Shown here in pieces: positions 37,901 to 60,001 of a stretch of 64,000 nt of DNA. Each line of letters starts with the position of its first letter. The stretch's first letter is position 1. The position numbers were made by a program, and so were the translations under genes. Source of the stretch: Porodaedalea pini (Eukaryota; Basidiomycota; Agaricomycetes; Hymenochaetales; Hymenochaetaceae); contig NBAY01000008.1 of NCBI GenBank assembly GCA_002794775.1, forward strand, positions 434,001 through 498,000, written 5' to 3'. The notes beneath the pieces are model-generated. The model did not search any database, was not told the origin of the DNA, and was given only the letters and a program-made list of their open reading frames with translations.

Positions 37901-38048
37901 CCAGACCTCTTCATCACCTGTTACGTCCACCTTCCACTAGCAACCACCATCCATGGGTCCCCAAAGCACTACGTAGTACTTTCTGTTTCCTGGTCTTTTC
38001 GTTTATGCGGTTGGGCGTCTGTTAGTAGTAGATAGCAGATATTATAAA

Positions 38049-38059
38049 CAAGCAAGCAC
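38049..38059. repeat. LINE 1 right target-site duplication
   Basis: CAAGCAAGCAC, identical to 31753-31763. It is followed immediately by GTGAC. Confidence 0.92.
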
Positions 38060-38064
38060 GTGAC
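38056..38064. promoter_or_regulatory. E-box GCACGTGAC in HerA-like B promoter; LINE 1 target
   Basis: Contains palindromic CACGTG and, on the minus strand, GTCACGTG, which matches the Cbf1/CDEI consensus RTCACRTG. It lies about 60 bp before the ATG of gene B. The LINE 1 duplication ends in the middle of the palindrome (CAC^GTG). Confidence 0.6.
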
Positions 38065-38125
38065 ACGCGTCCGCAAATTGTTTTGACGCGTCTTGCCGCG
38101 TTTCCCTCCTTCCTGCTTTGCCCAC

Positions 38126-40140
38126 ATGTCGGCGGCCTTGGACTTTTCAAACTTTTCCTTCGATTTTGCACGCTCGTCCAAGGAGTTTGGCTTGCAGAAA
38201 GGCAGCTCAACGGTGACGCTGAATGGCTCCACGTCCAAGGTGTTGACAAATGCAACGAACGAGCCTCAGTTCAAGATTGGAAACTCGACAAAGACAGGCG
38301 GGTCGATATTCACGCCACTGTCGACTGTTTCGGTTGAGATCATCAGAGGAGATGAGGTATGCAAGTGCATGTCTTTTATTTTTTTTCAGTGTGTTGATAA
38401 CAGGCCAACAAACGACAGGAAGAATTCGAGCTCATACAACCCATAACTATCTCATCTACGTCAAAGAAAGCGTACCCACAAAAGCAATCAAATAAGCATG
38501 ACCATTCTACTGCTCCTCTCATGACACGAGGCGCGCTCCTTGAGGTTGGTCTAGGGAAAGATAATTCGCAATATGGTGTTCTAGGCCAAATTCTCTCTGT
38601 GCAGTATGTCTTATCTATTGCTATATCTGAAACAATTTAAACTAGTCTACTTTAGTACCAAAGACCGTGCTAACGTACCTGACGATACGCGTCTCTATTT
38701 GAATACGGTGTGCATTTCTGACGCATTATTGAAGATGAAGCTGACAAGCGTCTCAACAGAATGCGCCCCTCTCAGCTCTCGTGTGTGGTGTGCAGGGATC
38801 AGGAAAATCTCACACCGTAGCGGCCATGCTAGAGAGTATGTTCATCCCATCTGACAAGCGAATCGGTACGCTCTCGAAGCCGCTTTCCGGGCTCGTGCTT
38901 CACATGAGCGACGGCGGCATGCATTCCAGCCCGAACGAGACGGCCTGGATCGCAAAGCCAAAAGTTGCATCTATGAAAGCGCCGAATGTCAGAGTATACG
39001 TGTCACCATCTTCGCTGAATACAATGAAGGCGGTCTATAAACCTCTGGGCGCGAATGTTAAAGTGAGGCCGCTGTACTTCACTGAGGATGAGTTGGATGC
39101 GCAGGCATTTTTGTCGATGATGGCCGTCGGTTCATCTGAGTCAGCACCCTTGTATGTCCAGATCATCTTGGTACGCTCGGAGCTGTGGTGTATATTCGAT
39201 CTGGCTACTGACACCTGCCGCCTATAGTCAATATTGCGGGACCTCGGCGAAAGATACTCGTACCAGGCTTTCAAGAACATCCTTGAAGAGAAACGGAGAG
39301 ATTTCAATCCCGCTCAGGAGGCTGGCTTGAAACAACGCATGGCACTGCTCGAGTCATTCATGTCGAAGGACAGGAACCGTGAGACGTACATGAAACGATT
39401 TGCAGCCGGGCAGATCACTATCGTGGATCTCTCTGACCCCTTTATCGACCCTGCGTCAGCCTGTGGTATCTTTGAAGCCGTTACTAGACTATTTGTACGT
39501 GCCCGAGTCGATACGGGCAAGATTATTGTGGTAGACGAAGCGCACAAGGTATGCAAGTTGGTCGTCTGCTTCTTCAGATTTGCTGACACTGAATCGACAG
39601 TACTTGTCGACTGGAAATAGCTCTTCAGGCTTGACAAAAACTCTATTGACTCTTATCCGAGAGCAGCGACACAAAGGCATGCGGGTCGTAATTAGTACAC
39701 AAGGTTCGCCACGCAAGTTTAGTTTTGCTTTCGTCTCCGGTTCTGACCCTTTACCCCGGCAGAACCAACGGTCGTGCCCCCGGTGCTCATCGACCTGTGT
39801 ACAGTCACGATCCTGCATCGGTTCTCATCGCCCGCGTGGTGGGAGCATGTCATGAAGCATGTGTCTGCAGATCTCTCTGCTTCGGACGCGTTCGACCGAA
39901 TTGTTAAACTTCAGGTGTGCCTCATTTTCAACAAGAGCTTTGTGCGTTTCTGAATCTTGGCTTGCGTTCGGAAACTTTCAGACGGGCGAGGCGATCGTGC
40001 TTGCACCATCGGGACTCTGCGTTTACTCCGATGCAACGGAGCACATTAATAGTGTTGGTCAATACGGACGACGTTATCTGCATGTTCGCATGCGGCGTCG
40101 TATCACGGAAGACGGAGGTTCGAGTATCATGGTTGTCTAG
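38126..40140 (+). CDS. HerA-like P-loop ATPase, paralogue B
   Basis: Second copy of the HerA/FtsK-like ATPase, role unknown. Eight exons: 38126-38356, 38419-38603, 38656-38707, 38760-39170, 39228-39548, 39601-39703, 39763-39914 and 39982-40140. They sum to 1,614 nt (537 residues) without a stop, which supports the model. The N-terminus (MSAALDFSNFSFDFARSSKE) differs from copy A. From KHDHSTAPLM onward the two align closely: NSQYGVLGQILSVQ, Walker A CGVQGSGKSHTVAAM, LSGLVLHMSDGG, LYFTEDELDAQAFLSMMAVG, Walker B KIIVVDEAHK, TLLTLIREQRHKGMRVVIS, EPTVVPPVLIDLCTV, LHRFSSPAWWEHVMKHV, and an end in EDGGSSIMVV. Intron positions match copy A. LINE 1 sits only about 60 bp upstream of the ATG, so the native promoter has been displaced. 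Confidence 0.86.
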
Positions 40141-40576
40141 ATTTTGTGGATTGTTTTCTTGATTTTTGCTCTCCAGAATGCTATGCGTTTTGCTTATCAG
40201 ATATGCACGTAGTCAGATAATTTTACTGCCTCACGATCATTGGCTGCCCGATTTGATTGGCCTGGGTTTGCGTCGGCATCAGACGCGTCACCGAAAATGC
40301 TGCAAGTGTCTTGACAATCCCACTACTCTTCTTCACCAGCAAAGCACATCCACAGCATATTTATTCAATGCGAATGAAGGAGACCAACCAGCAATAATAT
40401 TAATGTCGTTGAGAAAGGAGGGGGGAAAATGGAACTATGAGTCTACCTTTACCGTTTACGAGATACCAATAGCGTGGGAGCACCAGTTGAGACTCCGCCG
40501 AGCCAATTGCATATTAGTGACGGCTCCAATCGGCGGAGAGCCCAGTCAATCGCACCCTTCCCACTCAACGACCACC
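40141..40576. other. Spacer between HerA-like B and ISU1
   Basis: 436 bp holding the 3' UTR of gene B and the promoter of ISU1. No other feature seen. Confidence 0.5.
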
Positions 40577-41318
40577 ATGTTCTCTGCTCGTGCTCTTTCA
40601 AAGACCGTCTTCAACGCTGCCCCCCGCGCTTCTCGACCGATTGCGCGCCCAGCGTTCGCTCGCGCGTACCACGAGAAGGTCATCTCTCACTATGAGTCAC
40701 CGCGGAATGTGCGTCAGCTTATTACTAAGCCCTTTTCCCCTCTTATCTGATATGGCCACTATGTATCCCAGGTTGGCTCACTGCCCAAGAACGACAAGGA
40801 TGTTGGTACGGGCCTCGTCGGCGCGCCTGCGTATGTGCTTCGTGTATTCTATATGCATGCAGTCCTTACTGACGGATTATGCGTATTTTTCTTCAGATGT
40901 GGAGACGTTATGAAACTCCAAATCCGTGTCGACGAGAACGGCGTCATTTCTGACGTGAAATTCAAAACCTTCGGCTGCGGCAGCGCAATTGCGTCCAGCT
41001 CGTACATGACCGAGCGGGTCAAAGGTCTGTCGCTGGAGGAGGCGGGGAAAATTAAGAACACGGAAATTGCGAAGGAGCTTGCCCTGCCACCTGTTAAACT
41101 CCATTGTTCAAGTGCGTTTGTTTTGAATTCACTCATTTGCTTATATTCTGACTTGTCTTGCAGTGCTGGCTGAGGATGCCATCCGGTCTGCAATTCGGGA
41201 TTATCAGAAGAAGCGGGGTACACTCCAGAACCCCAAGCAGGCTGGTTTCATTGATGTCTCTCAGAGTGCAGCGACTGGGCAAACTGTGGCGACAGCACAT
41301 CCAGGAGGGTCTGTATAA
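40577..41318 (+). CDS. ISU1: Mitochondrial iron-sulfur cluster scaffold protein
   Basis: IscU-type scaffold on which [2Fe-2S] clusters are built in the mitochondrial matrix with NFS1-ISD11, frataxin and the Hsp70/J-protein pair. ATG 40577 begins an Arg/Ala-rich presequence ([20 protein letters not shown]). Three introns join to [60 protein letters not shown] and [20 protein letters not shown]. The three cluster cysteines (PAC-GD, FGC-GS, LHC-SM) and the LPPVK chaperone-binding motif are all present. The C-terminal tail, past the usual end ([20 protein letters not shown] and a few residues), is longer than in yeast. Stop TAA 41316-41318. Intact. Confidence 0.96.
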
Positions 41319-41524
41319 ATAATAGCCTTCCTCTTGGCTGTACTTTCTCCCCTTCCATCCTCTTGTCCATATCGCATTGCATGTCCTTTGCATTCAAAAC
41401 ATCCAGTAGTAGGTTATCATCAACTTAGTTCAATGTAAATTTAGTACAAATATGCATGACTGTCCATGTCATTAGCGTCGAGCGCTGCTCCAAACCCCGC
41501 TGATGGGGTAACAATACAAACATA

Positions 41525-43652
41525 TCAAGGCTTACTTGACGAAGCGCCGCCTTTCTGCCCGACAAAAGAGAAAGTGCCCTTTGCAAACCACTTGTCGTTT
41601 GCTTCCTTTAGACGCTGGGCCGCAGCAGCGTGATTTGTGATTTCGAAGCCTGCCAACGCGATGTACGTCAGTAAGGGTCACAAAGGATATGTAGGCAAGC
41701 CGCAAACCTTGAACGGGGGTGAATACCAGCGATGTCGCAGTTCCTGAGGTCTGCTGCTGCGCGGAGCGCGTGATAGCAGCTGTACGCAGCTTGTTCGCTT
41801 TTGACATCTTGGCTGTAGAAGAGGGCGCGATCCTGAGTAGATACTTGACGTAAGTGAAGAAGGGGGGCAAACCTTTGCTCTTCGCCTCGCCCATCCCGGC
41901 TCTGACCCTCCCACTCGCGGCACCAATCATACCCATACCCTTCGTCTCGTCGAACGCACCGACCTCCTCCTCGGCCTCGCCGAACGCCATGCGGTTCTGC
42001 AGCTTTCGGAGCTCCGTCTGTGCATACGCTTCCTTCGCTTTCCGTGCCCTGTGATAACGCAAAAGAACCCATACGCAATTGAGTAGAGAAAAGAGACAAG
42101 GGAGAAGAGTTGGAGAGAAAGGAAGGACACGAACCGTTTCCCACCGCGTCGCTTCTTCGGGCCATCGTTCGGGATGGGCAGGGCTTTCGTTACCTTCGAC
42201 GGAGGTGGTGCCGCGAGCCGGTCAATATGCTTGTCGATCTTCTCCCGTAGTTCCTCTCCGTAACTGCCTATAACGACATAGCTGTAAAAACCGAATACAA
42301 TCAATTCAGTCGAGAGTTTATTCTTACCGTCTCTCCGCATACGTTCCAAGTCCATCCTCGCGGCTAAGACGGATTTGGCACCAACAGTACGTTGGACCTT
42401 CAGCCTGTAGTCCGCGGGCGTTTGTTGGACTAGATCCGACTGGAAAACAAATCCTGTATGTCGATTCTGTGTGGCTGAAGAGAAGCCGGCCGCAATTTTC
42501 TTCTGAGCGCCAAGGAGCTATACACGACAGGTTAGAGTTATACACGAGAATACTGATTTGCGACGCACATGGACGTTGCAAGCAGGCATTTTAGCCAGAG
42601 CACTTAAACCGCCTGCGACTCCAAGAAGCTTCGCCGCGATGGTAGTGCCAACGATAGCGGAAAGATTAGGCGCAAGCATGTTCATACGAGAGCTGACGTA
42701 GGTGAAAATCTACCAATACTTTTTAGAGATGTTCACCCTCATATCATTTATCAGGCTTACCTTCTTTCTGGCCTCCTCAAGACGATCCGCCAAGTCGCAT
42801 GCAGTCTGAACTGCACGCCATTCACTGTCGGACAGCTTCTGGCCCGTCGTCGTCGTCGCCGTGACGAGGACGCTCATGATCGCCGCAGCCGGAAGGATGC
42901 CAGACAGGTCCGCCTTCGTCGGGTCCTCCGAGTTTCCCAGTGCACGCACTGAACGGATGAACTGGGCCGGGTCGGCAACGAGCTGTTCGAGCTCGGGAAA
43001 CTTTGGGGCATAATGATCTCGGATGAACTAGAGTTGAAAAGAAAGAGAAAGGAATGATCAATACCTCAGAGCCAGACTCCAAACAGAGGCGGAGATAATT
43101 GCCTTGTGCACCACCAGGATTTCGTTGTCGACGTCGACGGATAGATTATTCGCTTGCACGATTAATGTGTACTCCGGGTTGAGGTGCGGCGGTTGTGACA
43201 TCGTCTCTGCGGAGCTGGGGTTCATCGTGTAGTGCTCAATTTCCTACAAATTTGGAACATTAAACACGTACTTGAAAACAATAGCGAACGAGACATACCT
43301 TGAGAATGTCGGTCATACGTTTCGTACCCTCCAACTTTGCGATTTTGCGCACGTCCTCAACACCACCAAGCTCCATACGCTGCACCTCCTCGGCATCTAG
43401 TTCCGCTGCAGGCTTCACTCCACCTTCGAGAACTAGCCCTCCTCCTCCCGCTTCTTCGCCTTGTTCATTCGTATCCCCGTCCGGTAGTCCTTCGTCCTCG
43501 TCGTCAGACATATCCAAGTCTTCGTCCGGATCCGCCTTCCTCTTTACGCCATTCGACGGCTGAGGTGCAGGTGGTTCCTCTTCTTTGTATTCCTCTCCTT
43601 CATCGTCGAGGTCGTCAAGATCAGCCAGGAGGTCGTCGGCGGGGCCACTCAT
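41525..43652 (-). CDS. PRP31: U4/U6 snRNP protein PRP31
   Basis: Spliceosomal protein that binds U4 snRNA with the 15.5K protein and bridges the U4/U6.U5 tri-snRNP. ATG 43652 ([20 protein letters not shown]) opens a strongly acidic N-terminus. Spliced exons give the NOSIC region ([40 protein letters not shown]), the Nop domain ([60 protein letters not shown]) and the Prp31 C-terminal domain ([71 protein letters not shown]). TGA at 41525-41527. About eight short introns. All expected parts are present. Confidence 0.95.
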
Positions 43653-43778
43653 TGCTGGAGGACAGAGAGCTGCGTGGTCAACGAAGTGCGAGAGACGCGT
43701 CGATCAGAGTATGACGAATATGGCAAGAGCGTATCGCGACGATTCTCGACAACAGAAAGCACAAAACACTAACAATTA

Positions 43779-44446
43779 CAGTAAACTACCACTCCTTCGT
43801 ACACCTTACAGTGCTTGATTTTTCCCCTCATGCAATTCTGCACATTCCTTCTCAAGAATAAACAGGGAAACTCCTGAGGTGTCCCTCCTGTTATTTTAAA
43901 ATTGACAAAGTGCTAGGACTTGGAAATGAATTTATATCTAAATAACTTAGGACTCTGAAGATTTGTCACAGCTACTGCTCCTTCGTACACCGTGACTCCT
44001 ACCAAAAAACAGGTGTGCAGCCAATCGGAGCTCGCGTCAGAGCCCGTTCACACGCGTCGTCATCCAAAGCAGTCACCCTCACCACTCTTTCCTCATCCTT
44101 TTCATCTATTTAATTTCAAGCACTGAGTCAAATCCTCTGAAAATTTATAGGTATATCTGTATACTACTATTTGATGTATATGTACCTTAGCAATAGTGAG
44201 AATCAATGTAATGAAATTATTGTAGACGGTTTAGAGTAGCTTCACCTTGCAGAAACACGAGAAAACACGACCATTTTGCATCTCCTGACTCAAGCACTCG
44301 TCATTTAATCCTCAAAATTTACAGTTGTATAAAGCAGGGTTGGATAAATGTACTGATTTTTTTCTGGAGCATTTTAACACAATTTGAGCCCAGAAATGTG
44401 CAGTGTACGAAGGAATGGGGGTGCACGAAGGAGGCGTAGTATACTG
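43779..44446. mobile_element. Tc1/mariner-type MITE (668 bp)
   Basis: Terminal inverted repeats of about 27 bp: left CAGTAAACTACCACTCCTTC continuing to 43805; right end (44420-44446), read in reverse complement, CAGTATACTACGCCTCCTTC. Each end is flanked by TA (43777-43778, 44447-44448), the expected mariner/pogo target duplication. Sub-terminal copies of CTCCTTCGTACAC occur at about 43980 and, inverted, at about 44405. The interior is AT-rich with no transposase, so the element is non-autonomous. Confidence 0.85.
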
Positions 44447-44558
44447 TATCCATTGAATAACGATGATACAAATCCATAGCATGTACAATTATTCTAACCT
44501 CCTAAAAATCTATGTGGTTAGAGCGTAACCATATTTATTTGGAGCCATTCCCCGGCAT

Positions 44559-46209
44559 CACCAAACTATAATACGAGCAGCTTGTTCGTCTGTCATCTTC
44601 ACGCGCGAGCGGAAACGCGTCCTGTAACGGACATTGTCGCAGCAACCTCTATGCACTGCAAAGAATAGTTCAGTGAGTGGCTGGGAGTAACAATAGAAGT
44701 AAGATAATACGCACGGCAAAAGTCATCCTCATCCCGCATCTTCAGACGACATGTACAGTAGTCGGCCATTCCGACAATCTGCTTCTCGTTGACGACTGAG
44801 CAGTTGATCACCGTCAGCTCAGCCAGAGGCGACAAGCCGTACCCGCTTCCGGCCACCAATGAGCGCGAGCGGACAAGTTCCTCCAATGCTAAGCCCGTGA
44901 CGTGTCCACACCAGCGAAGATCCAGCACAGACAGCTTGGGCAGCAGCCCAAAAGAGGGACTCAGATATTCTAGCGTCTCATCTAGAATCTCCGATCCATG
45001 CAGCCGCAGCTCCTCCAGACTCGAAAGTATATTGAAGCAAAACAGGAAATCCTCCTGTGAAATGTCTACGTCGTATAGCTCCAAGACTTGAAGCGGTGGA
45101 GTAGACTGCTCGATAAAGTGACGCATGGCTGCGCGTGTCGTATCCGCTGCGAACCCCTGAGGGTCATCGGGGCATCGCATATAGAGACGTTGAAGCTTTG
45201 GTGCACGAAGGCGTTGGATAAATGCCATAAAGGGTATAGGAAGGCTCAAAGTAAGCGAGCTCAGCTCTCGGAGCACAATAGGTTCATCGTGCTCCAGTTG
45301 GAAGTCGCGCTTGTCCTTGCACGAGATGCTAATGTTGAGTTCTAGAAGATTGGGCGAGTCGGATAGGACCCTGATGATCTCCGAAGCAAGGATAGGTCTG
45401 GCAGCGGCGAACTGACAATCGTTGAGCTGCAGAGTGAGGCTAGTGATTTGCGGCACCCCGACCCAGGATTGGCAGATATCCGTTGTGAGCGTGACTTTCC
45501 TGAGGCTTAGTGCAGCTTCGAACGCCGTTCTGAGTTCCGATAGTTGGCTTTGTCCATGGGCAAATTCTGGGAGAGGCATAGTAACAGACGAATCGCCAAC
45601 TTTGATGGAAACTTCCTGAAGATAAGGACCAGACGCAGAGATACAGCCAAGCACATAATTGGCCGTATGCACAGTGGGTGCCTCCAACACGAAGGATCTC
45701 CAGCGTAGGATATGTGCGGATATCACCTTCAAGACAGCGTCCGTCACGAACATTTGTTCCGATGTCCTGAATGTAATATTCAACAAGGATTGACGGGCCA
45801 TCTGCAACCATAAGTTGCAGCGTGCCACTGGATCGCCCTTGTCACAGTCGATATATACGTGAGACCAGACCGAGGGCGTCTTGGAAGCTTCTCTCCAGGA
45901 TGAACAGACCTGAGAGACGACAATGGGACCCCGAGTCCATCCGTCTGTGACCGCGAGCTCGAAGATGCGAGCAAGAAGTTCTGTTGGTATGCGGTTGGCA
46001 AGTGTAAGGACGGCACGGCATTTCGTGATGGCTAAGAAATGTTTCCGCTTCTCCTCCTCGATACGGCGTGCCTGCTGAATCAGGCCATCTATCTGCGCCT
46101 GTAGCGTATCGATGAACGCTTCATGCACAGCGATTTCCTCGCGTGCCTTCTGTATATCGTTATTGGATGGCGTGTATCGGTACAAACTGCATTCCATATC
46201 GCACTGCAT
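44559..46209 (-). CDS. F-box/leucine-rich-repeat protein (basidiomycete type)
   Basis: Probably a substrate adaptor of an SCF ubiquitin ligase; target unknown. ATG 46209 ([20 protein letters not shown]), then a coiled coil ([38 protein letters not shown]) leading into the F-box-like [16 protein letters not shown] and [20 protein letters not shown], the layout seen in hundreds of Agaricomycete proteins. LRR-like repeats follow ([40 protein letters not shown]). The 3' end is ambiguous. Read through, the frame stops at 44599. A 54-nt GT-AG intron beginning at the Cys codon of DEDDFC would instead give an end [10 protein letters not shown] with TGA at 44559-44561. I prefer the spliced form because of the strong splice sites. 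LINE 2 is inserted about 110 bp upstream of the start. Confidence 0.85.
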
Positions 46210-46319
46210 GATACTTTGAGTTATGAGATGCGAGTCCCGATAGCAAGCAGGCTCACCTTCGGTCCTAAGTAAGTAAGAGGCTCCTTCACACAAGAAATGG
46301 GGCAGATAGCAAGCTGATC

Positions 46320-46330
46320 TACCATTGCAC
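46320..46330. repeat. LINE 2 left target-site duplication
   Basis: TACCATTGCAC, repeated exactly at 59986-59996. Confidence 0.92.
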
Positions 46331-46397
46331 CTTTCCTTCCTACTATCACCATACATCGTGGGAAATTGTTCAATCTTTCTCGTATTCTTTCTCTGTC

Positions 46398-47850
46398 ATG
46401 GATAACAAGATGTTAACCAGGGCAAAAGCCTCTCTAAACAAAACCAAGTCTTTTCGTTCCCTTGTTAATCCCAAGGACCCCACCAAGTGTGAGGAGTGTA
46501 AACAGGATCTCCCCTATCACAGTCGCCAGTGTGTTAGCGGGACAGCCAAGTTATGCGCCGTTTGTGGTCGCGACAAGACCCATAACCACAACGACTCTGT
46601 CTGCGTTCAGGTAGAAGCGAATCGCGCAAATTGGTCACCCGATGTCGAGGCGGACGAACATGCCGCCAAACTTCGCAAACAAGGGGACCTCCCCCCCACT
46701 CCTGATATCGAGTCGCAAAACACACTTAAACGTTCAAATTCCGAGGAGGAACATAGGTCACTCCCGCCTCCCGCCCGCGTTGACGACGATGCTATGGACG
46801 ACAATGATCTGTACATTCCGGATGAGCAACACAGTCAAGCCCCGCAGGTCGACAACGACATGATCGATATCGATGAGCTGGAGGATCCGGCTATCGCCGA
46901 GAAGGTCAACCATTCCTTCGCCCGACTTACTAAGGACACTGTCAATACGATTAACACGCTCATTTCCCAACCTACGTGGTCGTCTGATAAGGCCTGGTAT
47001 GACGATCCTGTTCGTGCCGGGTCTATCCTCGCCAATATCGGCTCTAACTTGGTAACCTGGATCAACCAATCCAACACTTTCGACGACGAAACCGCCCGCC
47101 AGAACTCAGCCAACGAGGGTCTGGAAGCTTTTCATTCTACCTTTCGTATCCACTCACCGTCTTTTAAACACGTGTTTGAAAATATCTATGTTAGCAGCCA
47201 GACCATCCGCGATCAAGAAATCACGGATACTATGCACACCATGTCCATGTCCATCCAACATCTTTCGACCATGGTAACTTCTATTTCGGAAAAAACCCAA
47301 AACATTGAAAAACAGCTTTCGGATGTCCCGGCTCCCATAGTTCGGCCAGTTTCCTCTAACATCACTAACGCTAACAAACAGAACAAGATCTTACCCGACC
47401 CCATTGGGGTCCGTTTCGTTCATGACCCTAAATTCCCACCCCCAGGCCCCATTACCAAACAGCGTGTCCAGACCCCGAAAAATGGAAAATCAGAATATGC
47501 AGCCGCCGTCGCTAAAACCTGTATCCCAGGTTCAGGTTACCGAATGACAACGGAGGGTACTATCATCGCACCAGATGGCTATGCCCATTCAGCGCATAAC
47601 GCACCTCGCGGATCACAAACTTCAGTCTACTATCCACCGGTCAAAGCAGTCGGAGTCGACCAGGAAGGTTTTACCACTGTCTCGTACGCCAAAGCCGCCC
47701 AGAAGAAACCCAAACCCACTCCCACCAAAGTTGTACGAGTCACGGAACAGAACCCCCAAGGGGAAATATCCACCGTTCCAATCAACCGATCTAACGGATC
47801 GGTGAATACACGTGTTCGCAATGTCCGCCGCATTTTCTTCTCACTTCCGG
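46398..47850 (+). pseudogene. LINE 2 ORF1, 5' part
   Basis: Starts MDNKMLTRAKASLNKTKSFR. It keeps both N-terminal zinc clusters (CEECKQDLPYHSRQC, CAVCGRDKTHNHNDSVC) and follows copy 1 closely to the chromovirus junction after NVRRIFFSLP. The reading frame is open up to the insertion at 47851. It continues at 55224. Confidence 0.9.
47846..47850. repeat. Chromovirus left target-site duplication (TCCGG)
   Basis: TCCGG here and at 55219-55223. The uninterrupted LINE 1 has CCCGGGTGAC at the matching place, which confirms the pre-insertion site. Confidence 0.9.
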
Positions 47851-48274
47851 TGTCAGAACTCAAACTTTCACCCTTTCTTTATTTCCCCTTTCCCTTTTCC
47901 TCTTCTTTTAACCGCTCCTTCTTATTATCTTTAATCATCCTTTCAATCACTTCCCACACTCCCTTCACATGACCTTCATTCGTTCCATTCCCGCTCATTA
48001 TGTAATGTTAGGTAATATAGTCTCACAGTCGTCGCTATATAAGGTCTCAGGAATCGCATGAACTCCTTGTTCTGCTTTTCCTCTTACCTCCACGACAACC
48101 TAGGTGAGACTTGTCCCCCTTGTATTAGTCTAGACTTGTATTAATCCTCTTACCTCCATGACGACCTAGCCTGAGTAAGCGTGTCCCGAGTCTACGCTCA
48201 AGTATAGCACGTCCCAGACGGTAGTCAGCCGAGGCCTGCCCAGTCCGAGTCATCTCCCGGACTCCCGCCTAACA
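47851..48274 (+). repeat. Chromovirus 5' LTR (424 bp)
   Basis: Begins TGTCAGAACTC and ends GCCTAACA. It contains a TATA box (TATATAAGG, 48036-48044), and 33 nt downstream GTTCTGCTTTT (48069-48079), the probable RNA 5' end. Confidence 0.95.
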
Positions 48275-48887
48275 TAAAAGCAGAACCTCACCCAGGCTCA
48301 TCCCCAGCGTACGTCGTCGCTGTCGACTCGCCTTCACTCGGTCTAGAGGAGTGCTCCCCTCGAAGGACTTGACGTGTAAACCCCCTAAACGACAACCCTC
48401 AACCCTGCCCGGACGCTTACGGACGTTCGTGTATTATGTAAACCTACAACCGACTTTTCCCAACCCTGGCTCTCCGTCTCTCTCTTTGGTGGAGGAACCA
48501 TCTGACTTGGACGTGGGTGACACACCGTGTACAGTCGTTGACATCGTTGTCGATTGTGCTCTCGGCCGCCTCCTTCCGTCTTATCATCAAATTTGCTGAC
48601 AAACCTGTCCTTCGTCAGCATAACATTCATCCGGACAACCAGCCCCTCCCTGTTCCCCCTCCGACGTAGTCAAGATAGATCTCACAGAGGAACAACAGCA
48701 GGCTCTCCCCTCTTCTTCACGCTACGATGCCGAACGACAATCGTACGTAGCAGACGACAGGAACCACGTCACCCATAACCTCTGGTGGAGTGACACTAGA
48801 CACGCCTGGTACTCAACTGAACCATCAGGCGAACAAACTCGTTGGGCACCTCGACCTCCCCATGCACCGTCATCACCTGCTATCTCA
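48275..48887 (+). other. Chromovirus untranslated leader
   Basis: 613 bp between the 5' LTR and the gag ATG. It holds the primer-binding site at its start and presumably the packaging signal; no ORF of note. Confidence 0.6.
48276..48286 (+). other. Self-priming primer-binding site
   Basis: AAAAGCAGAAC starts one base after the 5' LTR. It is the exact reverse complement of 11 nt in the LTR (48069-48079) located about 33 nt after the TATA box. This is the arrangement used by Tf1/sushi elements, where the folded RNA 5' end primes reverse transcription. No tRNA-type TGG site is present. Confidence 0.78.
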
Positions 48888-50075
48888 ATGTCGTCGGTGA
48901 TCCTTCCTAGCGAACCGGGAGGTTATCGTACGCCCCGTAGAGACTCATCACCGCCAACACCTCCTGAACACCTATCCCGCACACCAGCACCGACAATGTC
49001 GACGTCTACTGGGTTCACTCAACAACAACAGCGGGAGCTCGCGGCGTTAATCGCTGCGGCCTTTACTCAGCAAGCGGCGAATGCTCCCGCTGCACAAACC
49101 GGGAATGCTCAGCCCCCCAACATTGACATCGCCCGGCCACGCGAATTCGCTGGCGGTGACGATTACCTTGACTTCAAGCACGAAGTCCTACTCTTCGTAT
49201 TGGTGAACCCCACAAGGTACCCCTCATCGTCGAGCAAGATCTACGTCGCGCTCTCCTATCTCAAGGGTGGCAACGCGTCGACGTGGGCACAGAACTACGT
49301 TCAGGAGTTCACGACAAGTGGCATTGTGAGCTTCACGGATAGCTGGGCAAGGTTCCAGGAACGACTAGATGCCTCCTTCAACGACCCAAACAGAAAGGAG
49401 AAGGCATTGAAGAAGTTCCGAGAAAAGGTCCAGAAGGACCTCTCTGCTGATGAGTTCTTCCAAGACCTCGACGTAATCATCAAAGCAGCGGAACTGACAG
49501 ACGATAGTGTCATTTGCGACTGCCTAAAGCGCGCTATGAACATCGAGGTGGTCCGTGGAGTGCTAAGGTCGATGCCGGTCCCAACGAAGTATGAAGACTG
49601 GAAAAAGAAGGCCGTCGAAATCGATCGTGGCGAACAGCAGATCCGCGCCATCCAACGAGGCTGTGCACTACCCCCCACGCGCCCACAGCAACAGCAGGCG
49701 CCGCCCATCTGTTGTCCGCTCGCAGCCCCCCACGTCAACAAGCGCGATGCGACTGGCGTCACCTTTGGAGGTGCTGGTCAGCCAATGGATGTCTTGATGA
49801 ACGAGGCACAATGACGACGCGCGTGCTGGATTTGCGGCGGGCTGGACCACTTTAAGAGCAAGTGCCCGCAGGGGAAGCCGATCATCCAGCGCATGCTAGA
49901 ACTGATGGCGCCAGGCGAACGTCGTATCCTCGCCGATGAGCTCGGCGCAATGAAGGAATCGGCATTCGAGGAAGTCGTAGACACTCGAAGGTCGACTGTG
50001 GAGGACTATGTGGAGGAAGAAGACAACGACGAAGAGGTCGTTGACTTGCAGGGTTTTGCGAGTGGTCAGGCGTAG
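48888..50075 (+). pseudogene. Chromovirus gag, interrupted by one TGA
   Basis: ATG 48888 (MSSVILPSEPGGYRTPRRDS). A capsid-like retrotransposon Gag domain covers FKHEVLLFVLVNPTRY, LKGGNASTWAQNYVQEF, WARFQERLDASFNDPNRKEK and ALKKFREKVQKDLSADEFF. An in-frame TGA (49812-49814) precedes the nucleocapsid zinc knuckle CWICGGLDHFKSKC, which continues in the same frame to TAG 50073-50075. The stop sits in a TGACGACGC context and fits a C-to-T change. Confidence 0.9.
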
Positions 50076-50093
50076 TCATCAGGGCGACTGACC
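50051..50093 (+). promoter_or_regulatory. Predicted -1 ribosomal frameshift site at gag/pol
   Basis: GGGTTTT (50051-50057) reads G GGT TTT in the gag frame, the X XXY YYZ pattern. After a 6-nt spacer, GGTCAG (50064-50069) can pair with CTGACC (50088-50093). It lies inside the gag/pol overlap, 15 nt before the gag stop. Confidence 0.7.
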
Positions 50094-53000
50094 GAGAAGA
50101 ACACGGGACTTCGAATCCAGATTCGCTAAAATATAACCAACTGTCTGTACAATACGTAGATGCAAACGACGTCAATGGTTTTTCCGATTACAAAGTCCCC
50201 ACCGGTGTGAATAAAAATGAGGAGTACGAGCAGCTGTTCATGAGAGGAACTGGCAGACGCCAGCTGGACCTTCTCCTGAATGTCGGACAAAGTGTAGCGG
50301 GCGAAGTGAGAGAGGTGGACACGCACGCCCTTGTGGACTCAGGGTGTACAGGATCGTGCATCGATGTGAGGTTCGTCGAACGGTATGGGTTGGAGACCAA
50401 GCGTTACATCCGACCCCTTGCAGTACTCAATGCCGACGGCATGCACAATGAGGCTGGGTTGATTGAAGAATACGTTGAAGTCGAGCTCATGATCGGCCAC
50501 CACAAGGAAAGGATTGTCCTTGTGGTAACATCTCTAGCATCGTCAAACATATTCCTGGGGTACGACTGGCTTCGACGTCATAACCCTGAGGTCGACTGGA
50601 AAACGGGTTCGATTGAATTCACTCGCTGTCCAGAGGAATGTGCGATCGAGAGGGAGCCGGTGGAGGACCTAGGCAAGGTGAAGGAGGTGGTGGAACAGAT
50701 GAGGAGGGTGAGTGAGACACGAATGGACAAGGCGTCCTGGCCTGCGTACCTCAACGACTACGCCGACGTTTTCAGCGAAAAAGGCTTCGAGAAGCTGCCG
50801 GAACACCGACCCTGGGATCATGTCATTGACTTGAAGCCCGACTTCAAACCGAGCGACTGTAAGATCTACCCGCTCACGCCAACGGAGCAACAGTCACTCA
50901 AGGACTTCCTCAATGAAAACCTGAAGTCTGGTCACATCTGACAATTGATATCGCCCATGGCGTCGCCTTTCTTCTTCATTAAGAAAGCCGACAAATTGCT
51001 ACGCCCGATCCAGGATTACCGTAAGCTCAATGATGGTACGATTAAGAACAAGTATCCCCTCCCTCTCATCGACAAACTCGTCGACAAGGTCAAGAAAGCG
51101 AAGTACATCACTAAGCTTGACCTTCGCTGGGGGTACTACAATATCCGGATCCGCGAGGGTGACGAATGGAAAGCGGCATTTTGCACGAACATGGGCCTCT
51201 TCGAACCAATGGTCATGTTCTTTGGCCTTTGCAATGCACCGGCCACGTTCCAGGCTTTTGTCAACCACATCTTCAAGGACCTGATCTACGCTAACCTGAT
51301 CATCATATACCTTGACGACATCCTAATCCTCTCAGAAACAATCGAGGAGCATATCGACACGTCGAGGCGCGTACTTCAGATCCTCCAAGAAAACGGCCTG
51401 TACCTGAAGCCAGAGAAGTGCGAATTCAATGCCAAAGTCGTCAAGTACCTCGGTCACATCATTGGCAACGGCGAGATCAGGGCTGACCCAGTGAAGACGG
51501 ACGCGATTGCGAACTGGCCTGTCCCACGAAACCTCAAGGAGCTGCAACAGTTCCTCAGCATGGGAAACTGGCTGAGACGGTTTATTAAGGACTACAGCAA
51601 GGTGGTCCGACCGTTGACATCGTTAACAGGCAAGAAGGACTGGGTATGGGAGACTGAACAGCAGGAAGCGTTCGAGGAGCTGAGACGACGTCTCTGCTCA
51701 CCTCCAGTCCTAGCCATCGCCAACGACGAAGGCCCTTTCCGCATGGAGGTGGACTCGTCGAACTTTGCACTCGGCGGCGTGTTGTTGCAGAAGCAGGAAG
51801 GAAAGTGGAGGGTGATCGCCTACAGATCAGAGGCACTCAAACCAGTGGAACGAAACTACGAGATCTACGACAAGGAGATGCTCGCAATCGTTTCAGTGCT
51901 CAAGGAGTGGCAGCAGTACCTCCTTGGCGCTCGCCACAAAATCGAAATCTGGTCCGACCACGCCAACCTCACCTACTTCAGGTCAGCACAGAAGCTGAGC
52001 TATCGTCAAGCTCGCTGGCGGACCGAACTCGAAGAATTCGACTTCCACCTCGAACACAAGTCGGGGAAGACGACGGGCAAGGCTGACTTGCTATCACACA
52101 TGGCGGGCTATGATCAGGGCAAAGATGACAACGATGGCATCGTGTTCATCAAGGACAAGTGGCTAAACCGTGGAGTAGTACGAACATCGCGCGACAAGGT
52201 GGTGGAACGAGTGGGTGAAGCGCAGAGGGTGCAGGACGAGTCGGAGAGGCCGACGAACATGACGGAAGTCGACGGGTTGTGGCGGATGAAAGGCAAGATA
52301 TACGTTCCGTCGATGATGAAGGAGGCCATGTTACAAGAGTGCCACGACTCGGTACTGGCCGGTCATCTGGGAGCATCGAAGACAGTAGAGCTCGTCCGTC
52401 GCGATTTCTGGTGGGCATTGATGTTCTCCAATGTCTGAGCGTACGTCCGAGGATGCGACCGTTGTCAATGGACGAAAGCCTTAAGAACGTCCAGGTCAAG
52501 GCCGCTTTATCCAAACGCAGTCCCTGAAGGTCCCTGGGAAATCATCACGGTCGACCTAATCGGAGAGCTCCCAGACTCTAAGGGACACAATGCAATCTGC
52601 ATCTTTGTGGACAGGTTCTCGAAGCAGATGCATGTGATCCCGGTGATGACAAAATTGTCAGCGGAAGGTATGGCTCAGTTATACCGCGACCACGTCTTCC
52701 GTCTCCATGGCCTACCAAAGAAGATCATCCACGACTGAGGCACGCAGTTCGATGCGTCGATGATGAAGGAGCTGTACAAACTCCTGCACATCGAAGGCAA
52801 CCCGTCAACCGCGTACCACCCACAAACGGATGGTCAGACGGAACGTGTCAACCAAGAGCTCAAACAGTATCTCCGACTCTTCGTTGACCATCGGCAATCA
52901 GACTGGAAAGACTGGCTCCCCCTCGCAGAGTTCACTTACAATAACCGTGAACACTCGGCGACAAAAATGTCACCCTTCTATGCGAACACCGGACGTCACC

Positions 53001-53688
53001 CTAAGAGCTTCGACACCGTACGAACTTCCTCTGCCAACATGTTGGCAGAAGAATTCGCGAAGCACATCAAGGAAACTCATCGTGTAGCAAAGGACAATCT
53101 GGTCAAGGCGGCAGAGGACATGAAGCGCTACCACAACCGGACAGCAGGGGCTTCGGTGGAGTACAAGGCTGGAGACAAGATTTTCCTCGATGGGCGAAAC
53201 ATCAGCACAGACTCGCTGATGAAGAAGCTAGCAGACAAGTGGTATGGTCCCTTTGAGATCGTCGACAAGGTGGGAGCAAGCACGTACAAGCTCAAACTCC
53301 CAAAGCGATGGAAAAAGGTCCACCCGGTCTTCAATGAGGCCCTGCTGAAACCCGCAGTCGAACCGTCCTTCAAAAGTCAGAAACAACAGCCACCGCCGCC
53401 ACCTGATATCATCAACAATGAGGAAGAGTACGAGATCGAGGAAGTCCTAGACTCGCGTCTGCACCGAGGGAAGCTACAATACCTCATCAAGTGGGTTGAC
53501 TACAACAAACCGATGTGGCAGCCCGAGATGGACTTTGGCGAGAACGCGAAGGAGGTGATCGCTGAATTCTATCGAAAACACCCCAGCGCCCCTCAAAAAC
53601 TCGAAATTCCTTGCCAACGACTTCGCCCACACTTCATCGACACCGAGCCAGATGACCGCGATCTTGGTTGGTCGGGATGCCCAACCTT

Positions 53689-53700
53689 GAGGGGGGGGGG
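53689..53700 (+). other. Polypurine tract
   Basis: GA followed by ten G, then TAA and the 3' LTR TGTCAG. Standard plus-strand primer position. Confidence 0.85.
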
Positions 53701-53703
53701 TAA

Positions 53704-55218
53704 TGTCAGAACTCAAACTTTCACCCTTTCTTTATTTCCCCTTTCCCTTTTCCTCTTCTTTTAACCGCTCCTTCTTATTATCTTTAATCATCCTTTCAAT
53801 CACTTCCCACACTCCCTTCACATGACCTTCATTCATTCCATTCCCGCTCGTTATGTAATGTTAGGTAATATAGTCTCACGGTCGTCGCTATATAAGGTCT
53901 CAGGAATCGCATGAGCTCCTTGTTCTGCTTTTCCTCTTACCTCCGCGACAACCTAGGTGAGACTCGTCCCCCTTGTATTAGTCTAGACTTGTATTAATCC
54001 TCTTACCTCCGCGACGACCTAGCCTGAGTAAGCGTGTCCCAAGTCTACGCTTGAGTATAGCACGTCCCAGACGACAGTCAGCCGAGGCCTGCCCAGTCCG
54101 AGTCGTCTCCCGGTGTAACACCAACCGGTTCGTTGGGCATGGAATGAGCGGAACGCACACGGTGTACGTCATGAAGTCGAAGAGCCTCGACTCGGCAATA
54201 GAACGAAGTGGTACACCCGGATCGGCGGAGATTACCTGAACACGGAATGCACACAATGACCGGATCGCACGCATCAGCTACTCGGACCGACCCCAGTGCA
54301 CTTATCTGTGCACGTGTCCTCTCGACCCTGCCAAAGGTTCATTCATTTGCCTTTGTCTAAACGAACATGCACCAGCCCGGCATTGGTCACTCCGGCTCCG
54401 TACAAAGGATCCCAAAGCTCACCGACGCTACGCCAAGTCAACACGCGCCATCCCCGCCTTTCAGTAGTTCGGATCGTGGAGCCGCTCAAAGGAACACTCA
54501 GGAGGCTCAGTGGTAGGACAATAGAGGACTCGTCTTATTTTATTTCGCCTTTCATGTTTACGCAGGACACTTGTTTAGTATTTATAGAGCGCCGAATGTT
54601 GTAGATAGAACAGCAATTCCACCCCCGAGTTTTGACGCCTAACTTTGTGTGATATCTCTCAGGAAGGTCCCTAGGTACTCCTCAGAGCCTTAGTGACTCG
54701 AATCACTCACCTCGACTTCGTTTTATTCACGTTGCGCTCGTTCTGTCCGTTCTGTCTTCACCTCGTTCCGCTTCGTTCTCGTTACCTCGACTTTGCTCCC
54801 TCTTGTCTCTTATCTTCTGATTTAGGTCCCGTATCTCGCCCCGCTCTCTAGTACTCCAGACGACGTCTGTTAAGCGTAGGGACTAGCCGTCCATCCCGAG
54901 GACAATCCCGCTCCGAGAAATCGCACTAGTATTAGCGCGTCTCTGTACCTTCCGACACAGCCACCAATGATCCCCCACACATCTCGAGCGCTCCACCGGC
55001 GCTACGCTTCGAACACTTCCCTACTAGTACGCTTCGCCGATTCCGTTGCCCCTGACACACCGGAATGCATGCAACCCGAACCCTGCGATCCGGAACCCAC
55101 GGGACTTGACCGGAATGAGGGTATTGACCCACTAGACACGTCTCCCTCGAACTCATTCATCTGATTCCCATTCACTAACAACCGGAACTCAGTATTATCA
55201 CCGGACTCCCGCCTAACA
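53704..55218 (+). repeat. Chromovirus 3' LTR, split by a 1.09-kb insertion
   Basis: 53704-54113 plus 55201-55218 together make the same 424 bp as the 5' LTR once the 4-bp duplication CCGG is counted once. About 14 differences from the 5' LTR, all transitions (roughly 97% identity by eye). Confidence 0.92.
54114..55200. mobile_element. Nested 1,087-bp element, probably a solo LTR
   Basis: Starts TGTAACACC and ends TATTATCA (TG...CA). It is flanked by CCGG on both sides, and its removal restores the 424-bp LTR exactly. No domain-bearing ORF is seen; one short ORF near 54967-55164 is Pro/Glu-rich. A TATTTATAG box occurs near 54579. A solo LTR or a small non-autonomous LTR element are the likely readings. 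Confidence 0.72.
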
Positions 55219-55223
55219 TCCGG
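55219..55223. repeat. Chromovirus right target-site duplication (TCCGG)
   Basis: Matches 47846-47850. LINE sequence resumes with GTGACCTCGCTG. Confidence 0.9.
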
Positions 55224-56008
55224 GTGACCTCGCTGTTTGCCCTTCCACTCTCTCTGTCAAAAACACGGTTCGTGCGGGCCTTAAAGGCAACCCGCTTTTC
55301 AAACATCTCGTTATTCTCAACGTCGAATATACCTCTAACAGCAACCTCCTAATCGCATTTACTAACATCCGCTCTGACTTCAACGTCCAGTATAACTCCC
55401 TAGTCATTCAACTCAACCGCATCATTAACATCTCTGGAGCGAGAGCTTTCACGCCTTCGCCTCAGTTCAAAATGGTCATCCCCGGTGTCCCAGTCTTCGA
55501 CAAGGACACCAATCTCATTTATTCAGAAAAAGATTTGCACGACAAGATCTCTGCCCTGCCGCAATTCGAAGGGTACGAGTTTATGTTCCCGCCCCGCTTC
55601 ATGTCATCTATCGAGCGTCTCAACCAATGGGATTACTGCAACGTTTCGGTTGTCCTCAAGGACGACTCCCGTTTATGTTTTGACCATTTCTTCCTGCATA
55701 ACAACAGGTCCGTCCCTATTTTCAGAGTCATCCGCCGCCTCGAAGAGATGAAAGCCCGACCCACCATCAACCAATGCAACAATTATCATCGCTTGGGACA
55801 TACCGCAGCAAAATGCCGCTCAGTTGCACGCTGCGCAATTTGCTCCGAACCCCATCGGACTGCCATTCATGTCGCTAAATGCACTCCATGCACGGCGTCC
55901 AACAACCTCCAATGCGACCATTTTGCCCATTGCATCAACTGCCAGGGTAACCACAGCGCCAGGTCATCGGAGTGCCCAGCTCGTCGTAACTTCAAGTCCC
56001 CCTTTTAA
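55224..56008 (+). pseudogene. LINE 2 ORF1, 3' part
   Basis: Continues the ORF1 interrupted at 47850, in frame once the insertion is ignored. It includes FKMVIPGVPVFDKDTNLIYS and the C-terminal knuckles. The first knuckle reads CNNYHRLGHTAAKC, where copy 1 has Cys in place of Tyr (CDNCHR), so a zinc ligand is lost. TAA at 56006-56008. Confidence 0.9.
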
Positions 56009-56013
56009 TCCTT

Positions 56014-59000
56014 ATGACCAATACAATTTCCGTCTTCTCACTTAATATTCGCAATTCAGAGCCCACTTTTGATTACCTCTTATGCTCCTTTTCATCCACG
56101 AATTTCACACCTGATATTATTTGTTTCCAGGAAATTCCAACCATTTCCTCTACAATTCCTTCTAAAACATCCCCTTCTGGCTCACGAGTTTTTCAAATTT
56201 GCAATTCTAATCCTTACACCATTTTCAGGCCTTCTCCTTCAACTAAACCACGTTGCTGTACTTTGGTACACCCACGCATCATTCATCGCATCTCTTTGCA
56301 TGACTCCGACCCTCCTTCCCCTAATATTTGCGTCATATCCATTTCTCGGGGGGACTTATCCCCTCTTTTACTTTGGAACATTTACAATTCCCCCAGCCTA
56401 CATGAATTTGAGAACCCCTTCCCTTCTCTCCGACTCCCCTCTAATATCTTTACCGGGGACTTTAACCAACATTCGGATTTGTGGTCTTTTCCGGCCCAAT
56501 CCGACACATTCCCGAGGTCAAAAGCTCTCGTTGACTGGATCAATGACAGCGGTTTAGTTGTTTGTAACCCCCCTGACCAACACACCTATTTCAACCGTTC
56601 CAACAATTCTAAAACCATTATTGACCTCATCATTGCTTCAGATGATTTCGCCCCTTACCTTTTAGACCATGTTTCCATTTCAAATCCTTCTTTGGACATT
56701 TCATCTGATCATCGTCCACTCCTTTTTTCGTTTAAACTGGATCTAATCTCCTCCCCTCCCAAAACCGCCCTTCGTTCAATTCGATCTCAAGACCTACCCG
56801 TGTTTGTTGCGGAATTTTGCGATTCCAATTCTTTTACCTTTTCTTTAACAGATATTCATACACCTGAGGCGCTGGACGACCTCCTTTTTTCGTTTCAGAC
56901 TTCATTCTCTAATTTCGCCACCCTTTTCCTCAACAAATGGAAACCGCGTTCATATTTCGGCCCCAATTCTTGGTGGTCTGAAACATGTTCTAAATTGTAT
57001 CGTGCGCATTGCCATAACCCTCATCCCGAATTGCGAAAACGCCTCGACGTCAAAATCACTCGGGCCAAAAACGCTTTCTTTGGTGCTCGCCTCCAACAAT
57101 CTGACACCCAATCTATTTGGCGCAACCAGCACCTGGGTACCGCTCGCCATCGCTTCCCTATTGGGGCATTGCGCATGGCTAATGGTTCATTCACCCTAAC
57201 TGAAGACGACAAAGCATCTCTCTTCCGTGAAATGTTTTTTCCCCCTTTAACGTCTACACCAGAGGTTATCCCACTCCCAGCCCTTCGCGACTTCATACCC
57301 CTTACGATGAGCGACATTCACGACGCGCTCCGAGGTATCGACCAAGAAACGAGTCCTGGTAACAACCACATCTCATATAAACACCTCGCGCTACTCATTG
57401 AACACTGCGGACAATTTTTCGTTGACCTTTTTTCCCTATGCCTTCAACTCGGTCATTTTCCTTTACCATTTAAAACGTCACTCGTTACCTTTATTCCAAA
57501 ACCCAAACGTTCTGACTTTTCAGTTCCACAGGCTTATCGTCCCATTAGTCTGGTTGACACTATCGGCAAACTTTTCGAACACGTTCTTTTCAATTCCTTA
57601 CAACCTTTTTTCGAAACAAACAACCTTCTTCCCGACACCCAACATGGGTGTAGGAAACATCGCTCCTCCATTTCAGCCTGTTATGAACTTCTTTCCTCTA
57701 TTCTATCCCAACCATTTATTTTCAATGGTAGCGATAAAACTAAGGCCGTCTTTCGACGCCATCGCTATCTCATTACCTCCATTCTTACGGTCGATATCCA
57801 AGGATTCTTCGACAACATTTCTCATAATCGTCTTCTTCACAAACTCATCCTCTCTAACGTCCACCCGAATCTTATTCACGTCCTTTCGGCCTGGCTCAGG
57901 GACAGACCCATTTCGTTTCATTTTAACAATTTTTATTCCACTCCTTTTATCAAACCCAATCGAGGTGTTCCTCAAGGGTCCCCATTATCCCCCCTCATCT
58001 CAGTTTTTGCCGCAGCAGACGCCATTACGGCTTACAACATTCGTTTCGGTGCACATCATCCCTTACTCGCGTATATGGACAATCACCTTCTTTATTCACG
58101 TTCTCTCAGCATTTCCACTAATTTAACCCGCCTTCGTACCCAGTTTCAGTTTTTATCCCTTCAATTCCAAACCCTTGGCCTCTCCATTGACCCGGATGCC
58201 ATTGAACTTCTTCATATTCTTCCAAACCGCTGAGCAGTGGCCATTACTTTTCATTCATTCTTAAATAATTCTCCATCTTCTTCTAACGCGTTGTTGTCCC
58301 TACCCAACAATTGCGTCATCCCTCCGTCGCGGCATCTGACTTGGCTAGGTGTAATCTTCTCTTATGACCTGTCACCCAAACTTCATTTCACAGCCCGTGC
58401 AAATAAAGCCCTTTCCACTATTCACCAACACTCCTTTTTGTTTCAACGTTCCAATGGTGCATACTTTCAATACGCCAGAATGCTATATTTCGGCTTGGTT
58501 CGTTCGGTCGCCATTTATGGCACCATCCTTTTCCCTAATTCTTCTCTCATTTCTTCCATTCTTCACCCAACACAGAACCGTTTTTTCCATTGTATATTTC
58601 ACAAAAGCATTACTCCCGCTGTCGCAGAATCGTTCTTGTCATGCCCACCACTCAATCTTTTCATTCACACTCTTTCTCAATGTTTCCTATTATCATATTT
58701 TTCTTATTCAAAACATAACCCTGTTCCGAACCAATATTTAATGTCATCTCTTCCTCCTGATATCCAAATTCCTAAATCACTCTCTTTTCCCACCTTTACT
58801 GAAATTCATTCGCGTCTGATTATGACACCTATCCCTTCTTCAGCCCAACACAATCGCGCTATTCGCGACTTCAATTCCTTCTTTTTACACCCTCCCTCTT
58901 ACCAGTACTTTATTTTCACAGATGGCTCCATCATTCACCAAGCCGATGGCTCTTACACCGGGGGCCATGGCTTTGTTATCATGCACGATCACAAAGAACT

Positions 59001-59841
59001 TGCTGTCTTTTCTTCAGCAGCGCACTCTCGCTCAAATATCTTATTCGAGGAGCAGGAAGCGCTCATTGCAGCCATGCATCGTATCTCTCTCCTTCTGGCG
59101 AAATGCTTCACACCCATCCACATTCATATCATTACGGACTCACTCAATTGCGTCGAGCTCATTTTCTCCAACGACACTCGACACGTGGAGTTTATCATAA
59201 TGTTCCGCCGTCTTTGCAGGATTTTCCTTGCCCTCCACCACGAGGCTTCACATATTACAATCCAGTGGCTCCCCTCTCATAGAGGAGTATTGGGCAATTC
59301 CAAAGCCGATAAACTCGCAAAAGACGCCGCCACCAAACCCGATCGCGAGACCATTCCAGATTCCCTACCCAATCTGAATGCTCAAGTACAGCTCGACCTC
59401 CTTCGAGACTGGAAAAACAATATCATTAATCTTCGCAGGCATCGCTCAATTCTTGAGCCGTCCTCATTCATCCTTCACCCAACGCGATCTCTGTGTCCGT
59501 TTCTGAAGCTTTCCCCAAGGAAAAAGATACATCGCTCAGTTCTTTCCCGCACCGCCAACTTAATGCTGAACGCGCTTGATCTGCATAATCGAAACCTCGA
59601 ACCCCAGTGTCCAGACCCATTGTGCTCCAAACATGATGTCCATCATATTCTCAATTGCTGCCCTTTCTTCTCCCTCATTCGAAAAGGCCTTTTTCACCAA
59701 CGATCCCTTCCTTTAGATTTTGTTGAATGGTTTCGCCCAAATAATTTTCTTTTACTTCTAAAATTCGCATATTTCTCTTTCCGCCATCCTCCGGACAGTA
59801 TGCCCCTTTTATCTGACTTACCACCCTCTTTTAACCTTTAG
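56014..59841 (+). pseudogene. LINE 2 ORF2 (EN-RT-RNase H), inactive
   Basis: Starts MTNTISVFSLNIRNSEPTFD, 5 nt after the ORF1 stop as in copy 1. Endonuclease motifs remain (FTGDFNQHSDLW, SSDHRPLLFSF). The RT active site reads AYMDNHLLYS instead of YMDD, removing a catalytic Asp. A TGA at 58231-58233 stops the frame after LHILPNR. Beyond it the same frame continues through ATWLGVIF-like, RNase H (IFTDGSIIHQADGS, WLPSHRGVLGNSKADK) and the zinc tail (CPDPLCSKHDVHHILNC). One stop plus a lost catalytic residue make it non-autonomous. Confidence 0.93.
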
Positions 59842-59985
59842 TTACTTTTCATGCTTTATCCTTGTAGAACAATCTTCCCATACTAGTTCATCACACTTCC
59901 CGAGCACTACGTAGTTGTTTTTGTTTCTGGTTTCTTTCCGTTGCGGTTGGATGTCTGTTAGTAGTAGATAGCAGAAGATTATAAA

Positions 59986-59996
59986 TACCATTGCAC
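59986..59996. repeat. LINE 2 right target-site duplication
   Basis: TACCATTGCAC, identical to 46320-46330, and followed immediately by GTGAC. Confidence 0.92.
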
Positions 59997-60001
59997 GTGA
60001 C
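59993..60001. promoter_or_regulatory. E-box GCACGTGAC between F-box gene and SSU72; LINE 2 target
   Basis: Same nine bases as at the LINE 1 target (38056-38064). It lies in what was the shared divergent promoter of the F-box gene (-) and SSU72 (+). The duplication ends at CAC^GTG. Confidence 0.6.

Follow-up and report, generated by a model that had tools for sequence, protein, structure and literature searches.

Site-specific long interspersed nuclear elements (LINEs) known so far hide in repeated genes or telomeres. R1/TRAS elements (R1 clade) carry an apurinic/apyrimidinic (AP)-type endonuclease and insert sequence-specifically into 28S ribosomal DNA and telomeric repeats. LINEs of the Tx1 clade, e.g., Keno in U2 small nuclear RNA genes, also combine an AP-type endonuclease with fixed targets, as described in the available sections of a survey (PMC4640811). 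According to the same sections, the early-branched, Tx1, and R1 groups contain most of the target-specific families reported; Tad1 is not named among these groups and is listed among the clades with RNase H. Here, we describe a LINE family in the fungus Porodaedalea pini that targets a transcription-factor word dispersed over the genome in about ten thousand copies, the E-box CACGTG, and is joined to it at one fixed bond. It was recognized in a window of 64,000 nucleotides (contig 8, positions 434001–498000), which a model had previously interpreted from the letters alone (the sequence-only reading).

The window contains two LINE copies. Copy 1 (31764..38048, plus strand) is full length, ends in ..AGTAGTAGATAGCAGATATTATAAA without a long poly(A), and is framed by an 11-bp target duplication, CAAGCAAGCAC, which we read at its left junction (31753..31763, plus strand) and again on its right (38049..38059, plus strand). 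Copy 2 (46331..59985, plus strand) is also full length but is interrupted at ~47850–55219 by DNA of a long terminal repeat (LTR) element; its 11-bp duplication, TACCATTGCAC, lies at 46320..46330 and 59986..59996 (both plus strand). Each right junction holds an intact E-box, to which no strand is assigned (38057..38062 for copy 1 and 59994..59999 for copy 2), and the top strand would have been cut at 38059/38060 and 59996/59997, respectively. Two 11-bp duplications ending in GCAC and followed by GTGAC had been claimed; when the window was re-read, both were perfect, ended in CAC, and were followed by GTG. The two copies had also been held not to be a single duplicated event; they are only 76.6% and 73.0% identical in nucleotide sequence over two aligned parts and are therefore separate insertions. 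The longer word GCACGTGAC was found twice in the window, precisely at the right junctions of the two copies. Its bare count is unremarkable (mean of 0.59 in 100 shuffles, with two or more in 11 of them); it is the exact placement, rather than the number of occurrences, that carries weight.

For a larger sample, we searched the window's own assembly (53.27 Mb, 201 contigs). The 12-mer AGTAGATAGCAG, located near the 3' end of the LINE, has 219 exact matches, compared with 8 for the reversed word, and every junction was read for the first 100 of these matches (contigs 1 to 21). CACGTG adjoins the element in 81 of the 100 copies and a one-substitution variant in 18 (CACATG 8, CACGCG 3, CATGTG 2, CACGAG 2, and CACGGG, CGCGTG, and CTCGTG 1 each), while in the last copy CAC is followed by the 5' end of a second LINE, nested in the same E-box. 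Element end and hexamer are separated by 8 nt in 98/100 copies, by 9 nt in L104, and by 10 nt in L109; the end was anchored at TTATA, or at GTATA or TATTAAA in four copies whose ends are altered, and L104 and L109 were set by hand. CACGTG occurs at 10,184 sites in the genome, one per 5.2 kb, so that about 0.02 exact hexamers per 100 copies are expected by chance at a fixed place. The pattern TTATAAA-N8-CACGTG was found 198 times and its reversal once. The sequence-only reading had proposed E-box specificity from its two copies and had named, as the outcome that would speak against it, further copies without motif enrichment; with 81/100 against ~0.02 expected, the enrichment extends to the sample, and one defined sequence is present in nearly all copies (81 exact plus 18 one-base variants). 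The family is thus target-specific for the E-box, as proposed. When 101 right flanks were compared, few pairs matched and the flanks were mostly unlike, leaving the E-box alone as common to them; the target is not a multicopy gene or tandem repeat of the R1, Tx1, or early-branched kind. Identical or almost identical flanks, i.e., duplicated loci, were seen for L079/L080, L019/L020, and L015/L024. A similarity search yielded 30 copies, 16 of which were already in the sample, and among the other 14, CACGTG was present in 12, CACGTT in one (L006), and no E-box in one (L012). From position 1830 on, L012 shows an AT-rich inverted repeat and many GGGT-ACCC-like words after its 3' end; perhaps another insertion lies at this junction.

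For 52 copies, we read both ends (42 paired by their ends, 5 further copies, 3 short elements, and the 2 copies of the window), and 49 of these have perfect 11-bp duplications. Among the 42 pairs, 39 duplications were perfect, two differed by one C/T, and one pair had none. Where 5' ends were taken by similarity alone (n = 20), CAC precedes 19; the exception is L132, which forms a pair with L044, 12.4 kb apart and without a matching duplication. With perfect 11-bp duplications and CAC^GTG junctions, the claim of one cut in the middle of CACGTG and another 11 bp away is borne out. Three copies deviate in the left half of the hexamer (L048, CAT; L051, CGC; L088, CTC), and in each the variant is present in both duplication copies. 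We therefore rejected decay as the source of these variant cores and regard them as real off-consensus targets, with these three bases being part of the target site. Right-half variants have no second copy for comparison; decay looks rare in general, because a one-base difference was seen in only 2/42 pairs. Furthermore, the joined flanks of 16 copies were searched against the genome. Only separate or single halves were obtained for 14, and two matched across the junction in related DNA, one on contigs 138 and 45 (82%), which agree with each other and represent one site, and one on contig 6 (85%). The aligned empty sites, ..GCAAACTCCACGTGATTC.. and ..AGGGACATCACGTGCTGT.., contain a single 11-mer and an intact E-box in each case. 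After insertion, the element is preceded by the target-site duplication (TSD) in the form TSD-CAC and followed by it in the form TSD-CACGTG, which preserves the E-box on the right.

To describe the shape of the motif, we used 98 sites (80 exact and 18 variant), dropping L080 (duplicated locus) and L065 (nested). Information content is 1.6–2.0 bits over the hexamer, 0.62 bits at +6 (A in 65/98), 0.28 at −1 (G 41 and T 38 of 98), 0.15 at +7 (C or T in 72/98), and 0.10 at −2 (A or G in 69/98). Positions −8 to −3, including the base at the priming nick, carry no information and no base preference in these 98 sites. Within the exact sites, A at +6 is enriched (50/80 vs. a genome background of 34.9%, i.e., 7108 of 20368 CACGTG sides; p = 8e-7), and T at −1 is at background level (27/80 vs. 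34.9%). Of the exact sites with A on a single side, 38 have it on the right and 15 on the left (p = 0.002). Flanks are better around variant cores than around exact ones (p = 2e-4), and core changes affect the right half more often than the left (14 vs. 4; p = 0.03). The target site is therefore graded and oriented, RTCAC^GTGAY. Regarding the target word itself, the E-box part of the earlier claim holds, and across the family the shared word is CACGTG, with flanks of graded preference, in place of GCACGTGAC.

The coding content of copy 1 is that of an APE-type (AP endonuclease-type) LINE, with an AP-type endonuclease and a reverse transcriptase in open reading frame (ORF) 2, target duplications, and no LTRs. 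ORF2 (34037..37900, plus strand; 1287 amino acids) matched Pfam endonuclease PF14529 (2.5e-16) and reverse transcriptase PF00078 (6.3e-22), followed by RNase H (PF00075, 2.8e-8 and 1.8e-10). The catalytic N/D/H columns of the endonuclease are conserved with 19 relatives, and a fold match was also found. Relatives of ORF2 in the protein database are distant only (39 proteins, best identity 26%). In copy 2, ORF2 is open in two stretches (56014–58233 and 58237–59841, plus strand). ORF1 of copy 1 (31839..34073, plus strand; 744 amino acids) shows CCHC-type cysteine clusters at both ends by eye; it had no match in a Pfam search and no relative at E ≤ 0.001 among 8000 scored database proteins. A 26-mer near its start (31926..31951, plus strand) was located by genome match search at 222 places with up to three mismatches, at least 100 of them perfect. 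Its identity in at least 100 copies of a family that otherwise diverges by a quarter suggests a constraint on the nucleic acid itself, e.g., as an internal promoter or RNA signal.

Many lineages and a short companion share the target. Out of 30 sampled copies with 1.5 kb of upstream sequence, 25 match ORF2 at 62–91% amino-acid identity and five do not. Three of these five (L033, L037, and L050) are complete elements of 862–863 nt with perfect 11-bp duplications. They share ~30–40 nt with the 5' end of the LINE (detected by BLAST in two and by eye in the third) and 40–54 nt with its 3' end, and their interior is unrelated to the LINE and holds decayed reading frames. An internal 21-mer of the short elements has 37 genome matches, 14 of which fall within the sample of 100, with CACGTG at 13 and CACATG at one. 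Hence, a 0.86-kb non-autonomous family has a common target with the LINE, and since it shares just the ends with the LINE yet sits at E-boxes, the element ends seem to suffice for the machinery to work in trans. Nearly all duplications are perfect, yet among 32 copies compared over the 3' 1.3 kb, no two are more than 89% identical; it looks as if many LINE lineages were active side by side, with a recent look and old divergence. No relatives were confirmed in genome and viral contig collections by a search that reached close relatives only. One viral contig (L189) was matched by the 3'-end pattern; it has no E-box beside the match, which we took as chance.

The analysis establishes the E-box as target, its 8-nt distance from the element end, the 11-bp duplication, the orientation of the flank preference, off-consensus targets, and natural empty sites. 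We consider it probable that this APE-type LINE family and its short passenger integrate at RTCAC^GTGAY with their own integration complex reading the E-box. Following the scheme of target-primed reverse transcription, the strand that primes reverse transcription would be nicked 11 nt to the left of the dyad of the E-box, where no base is preferred, and the opposite strand would be cut at the dyad itself, CAC^GTG. With no preference at the priming nick and the E-box at the dyad cut, the sequence-specific cut would be that of the second strand, or would be made first and not used as primer. The E-box would be read by the integration complex of the element, most likely by the endonuclease domain itself, while a partner subunit one helical turn away would make the priming nick, and each new copy would have an intact E-box on its right. 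The full version of this scheme is more tentative, and we hold it at slightly less than even chances: a LINE lineage specific at the second-strand cut, whose own endonuclease reads RTCAC^GTGAY, whose partner nicks unspecifically, which leaves the E-box intact at its right end, and which comprises many diverged lineages and a passenger needing only the two element ends.

Several observations weigh against reading by the element's own complex. The best-known LINEs carry their sequence preference at the priming nick, unlike the situation here. Two of the 14 further copies depart from the target (L012, with no E-box at its 3' end, and L006, with CACGTT), and sampling by the exact 3' 12-mer covers only lineages carrying it. 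RTCACATG is present in 5/8 CACATG sites, as expected of a choice made by a Cbf1-like factor. The flank preference resembles the Cbf1/CDEI consensus, which we take to be RTCACRTG; a resemblance to this consensus had already been pointed out from the two window sites. The priming nick presumably lies just outside the place where a bound basic helix-loop-helix (bHLH) dimer would sit.

These last points lead to the strongest competitor, in which a Cbf1-type host bHLH bound to RTCACGTGAY tethers the LINE particle and the endonuclease nicks beside the dimer and later cuts the dyad. An E-box target, the flanks, and the tolerated CACATG all fit this consensus, and the host genome has 10 HLH matches. 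Eight stretches were fetched, and one of them (L191) has yeast centromere-binding protein 1 (7ssa) as its best solved relative (E = 1.4e-8), so the host does encode a Cbf1-like bHLH. Tethering by host factors is also known for other retroelements, as in an available excerpt on TRE5-A and the RNA polymerase III complex. On the other hand, tethering does not readily account for a spacing accurate to the base in 98/100 copies, for a cut at the center of the very site to which the factor would be bound, or for T at −1 remaining at background level in exact sites (27/80 vs. 34.9%), and an orientation preference is not obviously expected from a symmetric homodimer. On balance, the data favor the machinery of the element itself as the reader of the E-box, and we regard tethering as rather unlikely, though worth keeping in view. 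Much further behind is unspecific insertion followed by the loss of copies outside E-boxes. Selection against gene insertions surely acts, and by codon usage only 2/100 right flanks (39 of 1.5 kb and 61 short) looked coding in their first 100 bp, compared with ~10% of background windows, in a weak test of little power. Selection cannot explain why 98/100 copies from many diverged lineages stand at the same 8-nt distance from a hexamer that occurs once per 5.2 kb, and this explanation is already untenable from the spacing data. Even less credible is the idea that CAC and GTG are parts of the element ends that mimic a target, for which the CAC ahead of 19/20 fetched 5' ends could be cited; L048, L051, and L088 carry their variants in both duplication copies, and the empty sites hold a full E-box without an element. 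Chance resemblance, conceivable while the sample was two, is refuted by the larger one (81/100 exact with ~0.02 expected; 198 vs. 1 oriented patterns) and has practically no probability left.

Some LINE copies harbor other DNA or each other. L064 and L065 (contig 4, 529103 and 542327) form a nested pair, in which the second LINE lies within the E-box restored by the first and the duplications differ by one C/T. LINE pairs with ends more than 8 kb apart amount to 14/43, many at ~12.4 kb, and L065/L064 is one real nested case. The 5'-to-3' distances of ~12.4 kb had suggested tandem arrays with two LINEs per E-box; this was dropped because seven middle stretches (L182–L188) look, by eye, retroelement-like of another kind and do not resemble LINE ends. 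The extra DNA inside many LINE copies is often ~6.3 kb long, and the seven middle stretches resemble LTR-element genes by eye. In the window, a Ty3-type LTR element (gag, protease, reverse transcriptase, integrase, and chromodomain) lies within ORF1 of copy 2 (~47850–55219), with ~1.1 kb of extra DNA between its second LTR and the resumed LINE.

Regarding the genes around the sites, putative start codons lie at 38126, ~63 nt past the E-box of copy 1, and at 60326, ~326 nt past that of copy 2, and an ORF with an F-box-like domain (PF12937, 1.2e-6) was found by Pfam at 44602–46356 on the minus strand. The first exons to the right of copies 1 and 2 had no Pfam match. The proposed proximity to gene starts and the F-box label were thus recovered, whereas the HerA-like and SSU72 labels, based on motifs seen by eye, had no Pfam support. 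Neighboring ORFs in the sampled flanks lie in both orientations (by eye), and a second CACGTG occurs within the stretch read in 6/100 right flanks. A promoter preference as such is not established: the codon-usage test had little power, the neighboring ORFs are of mixed orientation, and the pattern would look no different if insertions within genes were removed by selection. Two host stretches of ~0.8 kb each (27566–28352 and 38758–39550) are inverted and 69–71% alike and are probably paralogous genes.

The family shows how a mobile element can enter next to an E-box with the word kept intact, and it offers an AP-type endonuclease that may read a palindrome of 6–10 bp. Graded targets and empty sites are at hand as a natural control set, so one can test directly how target recognition by a LINE complex works and which of the two cuts is specific. 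In keeping with the earlier statement that no fungal LINE with such a target was known, no LINE directed to E-boxes was reported in the full-text literature searched, Repbase-type libraries and subscription papers lying outside this search. Human L1 prefers T-rich priming nicks, whereas the priming nick of this LINE is without base preference. Site choice in Tf1/Ty elements is tied to host regulatory sites, and so is that of TRE5-A of Dictyostelium according to an available excerpt, as here; these elements are tethered at variable distance, while the spacing here is exact to the base. Tad1-like fungal LINEs resemble the family in having endonuclease, reverse transcriptase, and RNase H in one ORF and CCHC cysteines in ORF1, and the RNase H follows the reverse transcriptase as in the Tad1 clade, a likeness by domain content and not by position in a reverse transcriptase tree. 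Tx1-clade LINEs differ in having a multicopy gene as target, where this LINE has a regulatory word. R1/TRAS elements provide the nearest endonuclease folds, and copies are mostly full length here too, as far as the 5'/3' counts tell; their targets are multicopy repeats, in contrast to a dispersed 6-bp palindrome with 10,184 sites, and the specific cut here would be the second-strand one. We regard the family as a target-specific LINE of the APE type whose kind of target is new and whose specificity would reside in the other cut.

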